From Kluyvera ascorbata (GTDB lineage Bacteria; Pseudomonadota; Gammaproteobacteria; Enterobacterales; Enterobacteriaceae): DNA of 34,798 nt. Location of the stretch: assembly GCA_016939855.1 (NCBI GenBank), contig CP070603.1, positions 1,334,870 through 1,369,667 of the forward strand, given 5' to 3'. A program made the translations under genes and the position numbers. Positions 926 through 5,041 of this stretch are shown here, in pieces. The notes below the pieces were generated by a model. The model saw only the letters and a program-made list of their open reading frames with translations, made no database searches and was not told the origin of the DNA. The first letter of the stretch is position 1; every line of letters starts with the position of its first letter.

Positions 926-2281
926 TTAAAGGATACGGCTGATGAGTCTGTCGATACGGATACGTCGCAGACGGCGGATAAGCTTACGTACCTTAATCGG
1001 ATATTCAGCGATACTCTGCAGATCGCGGAAATCATTCACTACGGTGGTGTGTTTGCGGATCAGATCCAGCTCTTTCTGGCGCATTGAGGCCAGTTGCTTT
1101 TTCGGATCGTGGATCAGCACGGCATTTTCCAGATCCAGACGCCAGGCGCGTGGATTGAGGTTATTCCCGGTGAGCAGGATCCACTCGTTGTCGACCCACA
1201 TTCCTTTCAGGTGGTAGGTATTATCCTCGTCTTTCCACAGACGTACGGTTAACTGATCGGTATTAATATAATACTGCAAGCGGCTCAGGAAGCGACGCAG
1301 GTTAATTTCATACAGATAAGGCAGCGCACCGATAATTTTAAACGGCTCGCTTTCCGGGATGTAGAAGTCATTTGCCGTCTTATCACCGACGATAATCTCG
1401 ACCTTTTTTCCATCCCGCAGCAGACGAATAATGTTCCGCACCAGCAGCGCAGGTAGGTTGAAGTACGGTGTACAGATGGTGAGTTTTTCCTCAGTACACG
1501 GCATCAGGTGGAAAATCGTTTTGTTCAGAACGCTGGTTTTACCCAGACCAACTAATGGTGTGACGGTGAGTTCATCATCGCTGGCATCGCCTTCAAAATG
1601 GTAACTGGTATCACGTAATTCCTGGCGGTACAGGCGGATATCGTTTTTGATTTCTGGGCTTTTTGGACGCTCGGTATTATCGAGGCGGTTAACGCCGCGG
1701 CCTTCAACCAGATTTTCCGACACCCAGTTAAACATGATGTCGGCCATTTTCGGATTGCGGATGCACTGATAGCGATCATAGCGATATTTATCGTGCTGAT
1801 GCAGATAGACATCGTTGATACTCGCGCCGCTGTACAGCACGCAGTCATCAATAATGAAGCCCTTAAAGTGCAGTACGCCGAGCGCTTCACGGGTGTTGAT
1901 AGGCACGCCGTAAACGGGAACCTCTACGCCCGGATTCTCTTTTGCAGTACGACAGTACCAGTCCGCGTTAGTATTAGACGCGGCAGCACCAATACGCCCA
2001 CGCTGTGCACGGTGCCAGTCAACCAGCACGCGGACTTCAAGCTCCGGGCGTTGACGTTTGGCGTCGTACAAGGCTTGCAGAATCGTCTTTCCGGCGTCGT
2101 CCTGTTCGAGGTACAACGCGACGATGCAGATTCGGCGCGTGGCGCTGGCGATTTTTGCGAGCAGAGCTTCACGGAAATCTGCTGGAGCATAGAAAAACTC
2201 AATATCATCAACAGACTGTGAAAGCTTGGGTAATTGGGCAAGGTGTTGTTGATGTTTATTACGCTTAAATTTTGACAACAT
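926..2281 (-). CDS. pssA: CDP-diacylglycerol--serine O-phosphatidyltransferase (phosphatidylserine synthase)
   Basis: PssA condenses CDP-diacylglycerol with L-serine to give phosphatidylserine and CMP, the committed step towards phosphatidylethanolamine. It belongs to the phospholipase D superfamily and associates peripherally with ribosomes and membrane. Both HKD motifs are present: H138-x-K140-x4-D145 (HFKGFIID) and H357-x-K359-x4-D364 (HLKGMWVD). The lysine/arginine-rich tail [22 protein letters not shown] matches the E. coli protein as I recall it, as does the length of 451 residues from the ATG at 2281. A GTG one codon upstream (2284) would add a residue, but the ATG fits MLSKFKRNK at the E. 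coli start. That ATG overlaps by one base the TGA of a 38-codon open frame upstream (TGATG). The only ribosome site is weak (AGAGAAG, far upstream), so translational coupling is plausible. Confidence 0.97.
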
Positions 2282-2397
2282 CACAGTGCGTTTCTTCTCT
2301 GGTTTAGTGAAGGGTCCTCTGTACCTGGCAGACGACGTAAGCGGTCAATGATACCATCTCTGTCGGGTAAGGGCAGCATTTCCAGCAACTTAGTCAT
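2281..2397 (-). CDS. Putative 38-residue small protein between patZ and pssA
   Basis: An open frame of 38 codons fills the patZ-pssA gap. It starts at ATG 2397, inside the last codons of patZ (AATGACTAA), and ends in TGA 2283-2281, overlapping the pssA ATG as TGATG. A plausible ribosome site, AAGG, lies 7 bases before the ATG. The peptide begins MTKLLEMLPLP and ends NQRRNAL, and is charged in the middle (DRDGIIDRLRRLPG). It has no signal peptide, membrane segment or domain I recognise. What is seen is the frame and the double overlap. That it is translated, and that it couples pssA translation to patZ or to its own, is inference. A chance frame in a 100-base gap remains possible. Confidence 0.5.
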   Translation of the reverse strand: MTKLLEMLPLPDRDGIIDRLRRLPGTEDPSLNQRRNAL

Positions 2398-5041
2398 TAC
2401 TCAGCCTTAATGAAAGACCCACAATGCCATCTTCCAGCTGAATATCAACGTCAAAGCCGAGCTTTCTCGCGAGCGCAATCATCCCGCGGTTATTGGGCAT
2501 GGTAATGCCATTCAGGCGCAGTAAACCGTGAGCGCGGGTATAGTTAATCAGTTTATCCAGCAGTCGCCCACCGAGCCCAAGGCCTTTCAAATCAGAACGT
2601 ACCAGTACGGCAAATTCTGCATCGATATTATCAGGATCGGAAATCGCGCGGGTTACGCCGAGGATCTCGGTATCATCGCCAGAACCGTGAACGGCGACAA
2701 AGGCCATTTCCCGATCGTAGTCGATCTGCGTCATATTGGCTAAATCGTCGTGGGTAAATTCGTTAATCTCGCTAAAGTAACGGTAGTAAAGATCCTCTTT
2801 CGTGACGCGCGCGATGAACTGCTGCAACAGCGGTTCATCTTCCGGGAGAATAGGACGGAATAAACAGCGCTCACCGTTTTTCATGACTACCCACTCCTCA
2901 AGATGTTGAGGATACGGGCGAATGGCGAGACGGCTTTCGCTTGAACCGCTAAACGGCGCGATATCCAGCGTGACGTCCAGTGCGGTAAATTCACTGCCGG
3001 AAACTAACAGCGGATGAATATCCAGGCGTTGAATCTCCGGACAATCAACAATCAGGTTGGAAACTTGCACCAGCAGCTGGCTTAATCCGGGAATATCTAA
3101 CGGGCGTAGCGCACTGCGTCCACGGATTTTTTTGCTCTTAATCGCCTGAATCACCAGATAGCGCGCCAGCGTCATATTGAGTGGCGGCAGTGCAACGGCT
3201 GCCTGGTTTTCCGCCCGCCACTCTACGCCGCCTTCGCCCAGCATAATCAGCGGGCCGAAAACCGGATCGTGCTCAACCACCACGCGTAATTCCTGTGCGC
3301 CAGCGCGGTTGGCCATGCTTTGCACCAGCAGGCCGTGAATGCGCGCCTGTGGCCAGGTCATTTTGACGCGGTCGAGGATCGCGTCGGCGGCCTGTTGCAC
3401 TTCGGTAGCGGTACGAAGATAGAGCATGACGCCCTGGACTTCCGATTTATGCGGAATATCCGGCGACCGTAGCTTCAATGCTACGGGATAACCAATTTGT
3501 TCGGCGATATGAACGGCCTCAGCGCTGTCGGAGGCAATCCAGGTCGGCAGCGTATTCAGCCCATAGGCTTCCAGAATCGGACGAACTTCATGGGTGTCCA
3601 GCGCGCTGATACCGTTGTCTATCGCCTGCTGCAATAGCTCGTGAGCCTGTGAGGTATTTGCCGTCAGGCTATGGGGCAGCGCCGGTGTTTCCCGCAGTTG
3701 TTTCTGGTTGCGCCGGTATTCCACCATATGCATAAAGGCGGTAATCGTCCCTTCCGGGGTGCGATAGGTTGGGATACCGGCATCGCTGAACATGCGGCGG
3801 GCTTCCCGCGATGAGTATTCGCCGCACCAGTTGGTCAACACGCTGATATAGTTCCCGCGCGGATGCTTCTTGATGAGATCAATTAACGCGGTCGCGCTTT
3901 CGCTGCCCGGCGCCGTTGCGCTTGGAGAGTGGATCACCATCAGGGCATCCAGATCCGGGCTATCGAGCAGCACTTTCACCGCCGCTAAATAGTGTTCAAT
4001 GCTGGCATCATCACGCAAGTCCAGCGGGTTATTAGCTTCGACGGTTTCCGGCAGCAGCTGCTGTAGCTGCTGGCGCGTCTCGTCGCTGAGTATGGCGAGC
4101 TTACCGTTGCGCGCCCAGTGCTCATCCAGCGCCAGCGCCGCCGGAGCCGCGCCGTTGCTGATAATCATCAACCGCTCGCCGCGTAAGGGGCGCATATGGC
4201 TGAGCGTTTCAACGGCAGAGAACAGCTCATGGGTATCCTGTACGCGCAGCAGACCCGCGCGTTGAATCGCGGCATCCCATGCCGGGTCCATACCCGAGTT
4301 GACGTGCAACAGGCGCTGAGCCGCCGGGCTGCGTCCGCTTTTAATCACCAGAATCGGCTTATTGCGCGAGGCGCTGCGAGCGGCAGAAACAAAGCGGCGC
4401 GCATCGCTGAGCTGCTCCAGATAGAGCAAGATGGCGCTGGTTTTGCTGTCCCGCGCCAGATAATCGAGCAGGTCGTCGACATCAATGTCCAGGCTGTCGC
4501 CGAGCGCGATAAAGTAGGAAAACCCCATCTCGCGCTGCTGGGCCCAGTCGAGAATGGTATTGGAAACGGCGGCTGATTGAGAAATAAAGGCCAGTTTCCC
4601 TTTGCGAATGGGCACCGGTGAAAAGCTGGCATTCAGGCCCTGCCACGGTGCGAGCAAGCCCAGGCTGTTTGGCCCAAGAAGGCGCATCTGGTAGCGGGTG
4701 GCGCATGCTTTCAGTTCACTGAACTGGTCGGGGGTTGAGGAAAGAATAATGCAGGTTTTACAGCCTTTTTCCCCCAGCGCTTCCAGCAGTTCGAGGTTAC
4801 GACGCGCATGGGTGCAAAGCACTGCAAGATCTGGGGAGAAGGGGAGGCTGGCAACGGTCGGCCAGGCAAGAACGCCAAGCACCGCTTTCCAGGTCGGGGT
4901 AACGGGCAGAACAGGGCCAGCAAAGCCGCCGGCCAACAGATTCTGCATCATTAAAAAACCGGCCCGCTGTGGTTTCATCGAGGCGCCAATCACCGCAATC
5001 GATTTTGGCCTCAGAAGTGCTTCCAGCCCACGTTGACTCAT
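2390..5041 (-). CDS. patZ: Protein lysine acetyltransferase Pat/PatZ (YfiQ)
   Basis: Pat acetylates lysines of central metabolic enzymes, classically the active-site lysine of acetyl-CoA synthetase, using acetyl-CoA in the cytosol. The 883-residue protein has the expected fusion. Residues about 1-700 resemble NDP-forming acyl-CoA synthetases: a CoA-binding Rossmann start (SIAVIGAS), a succinyl-CoA-ligase-like part (AFISQSAAVSN; ISNGAAPAALALD) and an ATP-grasp part (GYPVALKLRSPDIPHKSE). Residues about 725-883 are a GNAT domain with the acetyl-CoA loop SDLKGLGLGGRLL and the NxxMIALARKLGF helix. In characterised Pat proteins the synthetase part is regulatory, not catalytic. The start ATG at 5041 gives MSQRGLEALLRP, as in E. 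coli. It ends overlapping the small frame that precedes pssA, and tapT lies 35 bases upstream on the same strand. In E. coli patZ is under cAMP-CRP control; I did not locate a CRP site here. Confidence 0.95.
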   Translation of the reverse strand: MSQRGLEALLRPKSIAVIGASMKPQRAGFLMMQNLLAGGFAGPVLPVTPTWKAVLGVLAWPTVASLPFSPDLAVLCTHARRNLELLEALGEKGCKTCIILSSTPDQFSELKACATRYQMRLLGPNSLGLLAPWQGLNASFSPVPIRKGKLAFISQSAAVSNTILDWAQQREMGFSYFIALGDSLDIDVDDLLDYLARDSKTSAILLYLEQLSDARRFVSAARSASRNKPILVIKSGRSPAAQRLLHVNSGMDPAWDAAIQRAGLLRVQDTHELFSAVETLSHMRPLRGERLMIISNGAAPAALALDEHWARNGKLAILSDETRQQLQQLLPETVEANNPLDLRDDASIEHYLAAVKVLLDSPDLDALMVIHSPSATAPGSESATALIDLIKKHPRGNYISVLTNWCGEYSSREARRMFSDAGIPTYRTPEGTITAFMHMVEYRRNQKQLRETPALPHSLTANTSQAHELLQQAIDNGISALDTHEVRPILEAYGLNTLPTWIASDSAEAVHIAEQIGYPVALKLRSPDIPHKSEVQGVMLYLRTATEVQQAADAILDRVKMTWPQARIHGLLVQSMANRAGAQELRVVVEHDPVFGPLIMLGEGGVEWRAENQAAVALPPLNMTLARYLVIQAIKSKKIRGRSALRPLDIPGLSQLLVQVSNLIVDCPEIQRLDIHPLLVSGSEFTALDVTLDIAPFSGSSESRLAIRPYPQHLEEWVVMKNGERCLFRPILPEDEPLLQQFIARVTKEDLYYRYFSEINEFTHDDLANMTQIDYDREMAFVAVHGSGDDTEILGVTRAISDPDNIDAEFAVLVRSDLKGLGLGGRLLDKLINYTRAHGLLRLNGITMPNNRGMIALARKLGFDVDIQLEDGIVGLSLRLSND

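Follow-up and report, generated by a model that had tools for sequence, protein, structure and literature searches.

An open frame of 38 codons in the patZ-pssA gap of Kluyvera ascorbata, and a putative control region of pssA

Genes and features of the patZ-pssA gap

The window, by which we mean the whole analysed stretch of 34,798 nucleotides of Kluyvera ascorbata (contig CP070603.1), comes from an assembly of 2.83 Mb in one contig with a completeness rating of 53%, and its minus strand carries patZ and, downstream of it, pssA (Table 1). In searches with PssA the nearest matches were K. ascorbata and K. sichuanensis (99% in the best segment). Phosphatidylethanolamine, the main lipid in these cells, is made from the product of PssA, and to our knowledge the way in which PssA levels are set is poorly understood.

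A 38-codon frame does lie between the two genes. The original prediction of a frame that fills the gap and overlaps both patZ and pssA was exact, its coordinates agreeing with ours (2281..2397, minus strand), and the AAGG seven bases before the ATG and the TGATG fusion to pssA that it named are both present in the sequence. The AAGG (2408-2405) stands 7 bases 5' of the ATG (2397-2395), which overlaps the end of patZ with its stop TAA (2392-2390), as in AATGACTAA, while at the other end the TGA (2283-2281) has its A in common with the pssA ATG (2281-2279), giving TGATG. Length alone is unremarkable, because about 16% of random sequence would be open for 38 codons (61/64 to the 38th power), and the 38-residue product matched no Pfam family at E up to 1 and no NCBIfam family.

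Table 1. Positions of genes, frames and candidate control elements around the patZ-pssA gap of the window
Feature	Positions	Strand	Sequence	Basis or remark
patZ, peptidyl-lysine N-acetyltransferase	2390..5041	-		ORF list; gene order as in K-12 patZ-pssA
AAGG, possible Shine-Dalgarno (SD) of the 38-codon frame	2405..2408	-	AAGG	sequence; within patZ codons
38-codon open frame	2281..2397	-	MTKLLEMLPLPDRDGIIDRLRRLPGTEDPSLNQRRNAL	ORF list, 38 aa, ATG start
Conserved block	2371..2392	-	TAAGTTGCTGGAAATGCTGCCC	alignment; 5' of the -10 motif
Extended -10 promoter-like motif	2348..2356	-	TGGTATCAT	inside the 38-codon frame; ~75 bases before pssA
Leader hairpin H1 (candidate)	2314..2336	-		folds and pairing across relatives
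AGAGG, likely PssL SD in E. coli-type leaders	2316..2320	-	AGAGG	H1 3' arm; kept despite PssL loss
TAA where the PssL start codon would be	2304..2306	-	TAA	extra base beside it, within about 2301-2303
H2 5' arm (candidate)	2276..2289	-	GCACTGTGATGTTG	fold, pairing across rows; contains TGATG
pssA, phosphatidylserine synthase	926..2281	-		ATG 2281-2279; GTG at 2284 also in frame
H2 3' arm (candidate)	2238..2251	-	CAACAACACCTTGC	fold, pairing across rows; pssA codons 11-15

Conservation of the frame and loss of PssL

Conservation of the frame was surveyed at 112 loci plus the window, which came to 111 loci once two duplicates of the window (L001 and L003) were set aside. TGATG was found at 111 of 111, whatever frame lay upstream, and for that reason it is no sign of coupling by the 38-codon frame; more generally, a conserved TGATG alone is no evidence of coupling by whichever frame ends there. 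The 38 codons were open with an ATG at their head at 14 of the 111 loci, all of them Kluyvera or Pseudocitrobacter and the window among them. Across the survey the open length of the frame that ends in TGATG ranges between 6 and 41 codons; the frame is mostly closed 13 codons up and devoid of a start in Citrobacter and Salmonella, and of other lengths or lacking a start at its head in Escherichia, Kosakonia and Enterobacter. Two more distant loci have no TGATG (TGATA in L130, TCATG in L132). At L130 the pssA start reads TGATATTG versus TGATGTTG in the others, and pssA there probably begins at GTG, ATA or TTG.

These counts of TGATG are anchor-free, drawn from the 111-locus survey, from 40 fetched loci and from 10 dropped loci that were re-read; the latter are the 10 of the 40 fetched loci that the protein anchor had missed and that were dropped at first and read later. 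A larger set of 243 loci was anchored on TGTGATGTTG, so that TGATG is present there by construction, and it lost L130, L132 and L145. For the clade itself, further genomes of Kluyvera (10) and Pseudocitrobacter (4) brought the set to 27 loci with 9 distinct sequences (the window counted, its duplicate L157 excluded, some genomes present twice). The ATG, the open frame and TGATG were kept at 27 of 27, all within this single clade, while the possible SD was AAGG at 10 loci, GAGG at one and neither at 16. The original prediction had looked to close relatives for an open frame, and there the outcome divides: stops or frameshifts occur outside Kluyvera and Pseudocitrobacter, and none occurs inside the clade.

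In E. coli K-12 the same site holds the 13-residue pssL (b4782), annotated at 2722702-2722743 and overlapping the pssA start at 2722727; its product, PssL, is Pfam PF22869. Excerpts of PMC8708949, citing Weaver et al. 2019, describe a positive effect of pssL translation on pssA in E. coli, and excerpts of PMC12350097 report pssL as recovered by a further method. A discussion passage of PMC9426594 assigns pssL to the ppsA 5' UTR, which seems a confusion of gene names, given its place at pssA in the K-12 annotation. The original prediction knew of no name for the frame, which holds for the 38 codons as such and does not hold for the site, home to a named upstream open reading frame (uORF).

On sequence grounds PssL is gone from the window, because its start codon reads TAA and one base has been inserted. 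Among 141 loci the codon at this place is ATG in 64, ATA in 37, TAA in 14 and another in 26. TAA was found in 14 of 14 Kluyvera or Pseudocitrobacter loci, and a single change accounts for it on a tree of 95 pssA genes (local support 99). The 37 loci with ATA include Klebsiella, Raoultella, Kosakonia, Phytobacter, Trabulsiella and Superficieibacter with the remaining frame intact (e.g., L013, L026, and L063), and several distant relatives have ATG at the place of the PssL start or one codon further on. Judged by its start codon, PssL is widespread and far from universal, and it is apparently not needed everywhere, because ATG is missing at its place in 77 of the 141 loci.

The TAA and the inserted base together have a consequence for the upstream frame, which therefore runs through to TGATG. 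Like PssL, the resulting 38-codon frame is short, occupies the same site and ends at or just past the pssA start, and its upstream part is the PssL frame until the inserted base. Unlike PssL, which in E. coli is reported to aid pssA expression, it begins in patZ and has another C-terminus with no Pfam match, PF22869 included; where PssL starts 25 bases before pssA, the window and 14 of 14 clade loci have TAA; and whereas PssL overlaps into pssA out of frame, the 38-codon frame has one base in common with the pssA ATG. A further likeness is to iraD of E. coli, described in excerpts of PMC5574718 as translationally coupled to a short uORF: there too a short upstream frame feeds ribosomes to the next gene, with the difference that CsrA acts on the frame of iraD.

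Synonymous bias, the check proposed with the original prediction, gave disagreeing answers for the 38 codons, ranging from P 0.001 to 0.15 by counting and reaching P 0.23 in the codon model. By random placement, 8 of 17 changes were synonymous (P 0.09; 7 distinct sequences); along a minimum spanning tree, which counts common changes more than once, 17 of 29 (P 0.001); and by Fitch reconstruction on the pssA tree, 12 of 26 (P 0.15). We rest the conclusion on the codon model (omega 0.59, P 0.23), by which coding selection on the 38 codons appears weak and is unproven. Small codon tests of this kind are noisy, as other frames show: omega was 0.26 (P 0.047) for Kosakonia in a different frame, and it rose well above 1, with P as low as 0.001, when Citrobacter/Salmonella and Kluyvera/Pseudocitrobacter were read in shifted frames.

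Promoter-like motif and predicted pairing ahead of pssA

Inside the 38-codon frame lies an extended -10 promoter-like motif. Of 141 loci, 137 have TGnTAnnAT at a distance of 72-90 bases from the pssA ATG, on its 5' side. Among distinct sequences the count is 89 of 93, where single-base shuffles gave 1.6 on average and 6 at most, and the remaining four distinct sequences keep TATCAT at the right distance and miss the TG. The wider set agrees (234/243 loci), as do 9 of the 10 loci dropped earlier. In the window the motif suggests a transcription start near 2341, and an mRNA of pssA begun there would lack the start of the 38-codon frame, because the motif lies inside the frame. A scan for consensus sigma-70 hexamer pairs found none in the window or in K-12, and none of the sources consulted, for any species, contained a transcription start in the patZ-pssA gap. 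An extended -10 can manage without a good -35. A TTGACC block was considered as a fixed -35 and rejected, its spacing to the -10 varying from ~17 to 20 bases in the alignment, as judged by eye. Further 5', a block like TAAGGTACTGGAAATG (2392-2371 in the window) is kept across many genera although the patZ stop shifts relative to it, and from this alignment it may bind a regulator.

Two pairings are predicted in the leader that would follow. H1 was assessed in 62 distinct leaders of 65 bases (188 of the 243 loci), a count to which the 66-base leader of the window does not belong. Its partners pair in 88% of cells, a figure that excludes a middle position pairing in 24%, versus at most 53% when the pairing is slid, and 0 of 500 permutations, which ignore relatedness, reached 88% (mean 83%, maximum 86%). 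A pair-keeping change from C-G to U-A occurs in 10 leaders at one pair; double-changed pair types number 6, not above the slid versions (1 to 6), and the fold is absent from some relatives, e.g., Leclercia. H1 is thus partly supported. An Rfam scan of 2050-2550 returned two matches far under their gathering scores, which we regard as chance.

H2 would pair the pssA start with early codons of the same gene. In 52 distinct rows, 570 of 572 cells pair, with variant cells falling at its 3 unpaired positions (7 cells) and at its 11 pairs (5 cells); no compensatory change occurs among these 52 rows, and the structure was drawn from the consensus. Codons 10-14 of pssA, which lie within or adjoin the H2 3' arm, show zero synonymous variation across 95 distinct genes of the core genera, a leucine CTT among them, while the same residues do vary synonymously elsewhere in the gene, and distant relatives do vary at these codons. 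In the same 95 genes, no other run of 14 codons is as constrained as codons 2-15. Gene starts in bacteria commonly show little synonymous variation. As a modelled structure, H2 is consistent with these data, if not proven by them. An unusually stable pssA start was also considered and is rejected, natural starts being no more stable than their synonymous recodings (z +0.3 to +2.2, 10/10).

When start regions of the window were compared with those of K-12, pssA matched at 94 of 100 bases around the start, a top score tied with rnc and srmB; the comparison covers 28 of 38 genes, ten having been dropped for want of a match or an aligned start. Locus L155 has no pssA row, its stretch ending just inside pssA. 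The start regions of rnc and srmB are as conserved as that of pssA in this comparison, and the srmB leader is perhaps worth attention.

Readings of the gap

We think it somewhat probable that the gap serves to control pssA, as a promoter plus a leader, and is not primarily a small gene. RNA polymerase would start at the extended -10 promoter within the gap and make a leader of ~60 bases holding H1, then a purine-rich zone for loading ribosomes, then H2 over the pssA start codon. In loci that have PssL, the ribosome translating it would pass the H2 5' arm and stop in the H2 loop, and the pssA start would be opened; this role of H2 is modelled from the predicted pairing. Before Kluyvera and Pseudocitrobacter diverged, a stop would have replaced the PssL start and one base would have been inserted; the open frame that comes out of patZ would thereby have gained the TGA of TGATG as its end, creating the 38-codon frame. 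If that frame is translated from patZ read-through mRNA, a ribosome terminating on H2 could restart at pssA much as with PssL. At the most, then, the frame would replace PssL in this lineage, on mRNA that reads through from patZ, any coupling in Kluyvera being something we infer.

What the control-region reading offers is concrete: an internal promoter, a leader hairpin and pairing over the start codon, with PssL in some genera and lost in others. A PssL-type uORF at pssA was already known; new is a pssA uORF region in which PssL has been lost and another frame stands in its place, and in the excerpts seen of the open-licence literature we found no paper on the Kluyvera frame or on a folded pssA leader. 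One result is not predicted by a pure promoter-and-leader reading, namely a weak coding bias in the 49 distinct sequences whose gap-spanning frame is unbroken (omega 0.69, P 0.02).

In its plainest form, the control-region reading would leave the 38 codons as a chance open frame over regulatory DNA, without translation, which we rate as slightly short of an even prospect. The frame is confined to one clade, the open length before TGATG varies widely (6 to 41 codons), and the tree-based coding tests are non-significant; set against this, start and stop are kept in all clade loci examined and the omega estimate lies below 1.

Less probable, in our judgement rather unlikely, is that the 38 codons are a translated coupling uORF, in which ribosomes from patZ end at its TAA, restart at the overlapping ATG and reach pssA via TGATG. 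The geometry of a stop overlapping the next start suits it, as do the retention of ATG, frame and TGATG in the 9 distinct clade sequences, the synonymous excess of the spanning-tree count (17/29) and the loss in this clade of PssL, which could do the same job. The remaining counts and the codon model are non-significant, however, the SD is not conserved (AAGG at 10 of the 27 loci in the clade) and mRNA begun at a promoter within the frame would skip its start. Coupling through a short peptide, as first proposed, thus holds up in kind, since PssL of E. coli is reported to act on pssA (PMC8708949, in the excerpts cited above), and falls short in the particular case, with a frame confined to one clade among the loci surveyed, omega of 0.59 (P 0.23), an SD that is not conserved and a promoter-like motif inside. 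A more specific version is a doubtful one: PssL would have been retired in the ancestor of Kluyvera and Pseudocitrobacter, and the opening of the pssA start handed to the longer uORF from the end of patZ. If true, control of phosphatidylserine synthase would have moved towards patZ read-through, in a natural frame switch of a coupling uORF.

A longer ancestral small protein or uORF of ~44 codons in the gap is likewise improbable; E. coli PssL would preserve its 3' end, and the frame of Kluyvera would be a variant whose tail has changed. In its favour, 50 loci (32 distinct) are open in the PssL frame back to the end of patZ at one length, (x)SKVLEMLTTLTGTGVIIARLCRLHSTEDPSMNREEMHCDVVKI. Omega is 0.51 (P 0.07) when Citrobacter/Salmonella are taken alone and 0.69 (P 0.02) when every sequence of that spacing is included; on the shorter stretch open to comparison, neither Kosakonia (1.48; frame shifted) nor Klebsiella/Raoultella (1.16) differs from 1. 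Enterobacter gave omega 0.69 (P 0.33), and the Citrobacter/Salmonella type of long frame matches PF22869 at E 4.4e-8. Yet the coding bias is weak, the test on the 50 loci (P 0.014) is biased by the choice of intact frames, and the intact Enterobacter rows all lack a start codon at the head. A conserved long protein is unlikely because non-triplet indels break the frame in several genera (Escherichia, Kosakonia, some Enterobacter, Citrobacter sedlakii and some Phytobacter), while a loosely kept uORF is possible.
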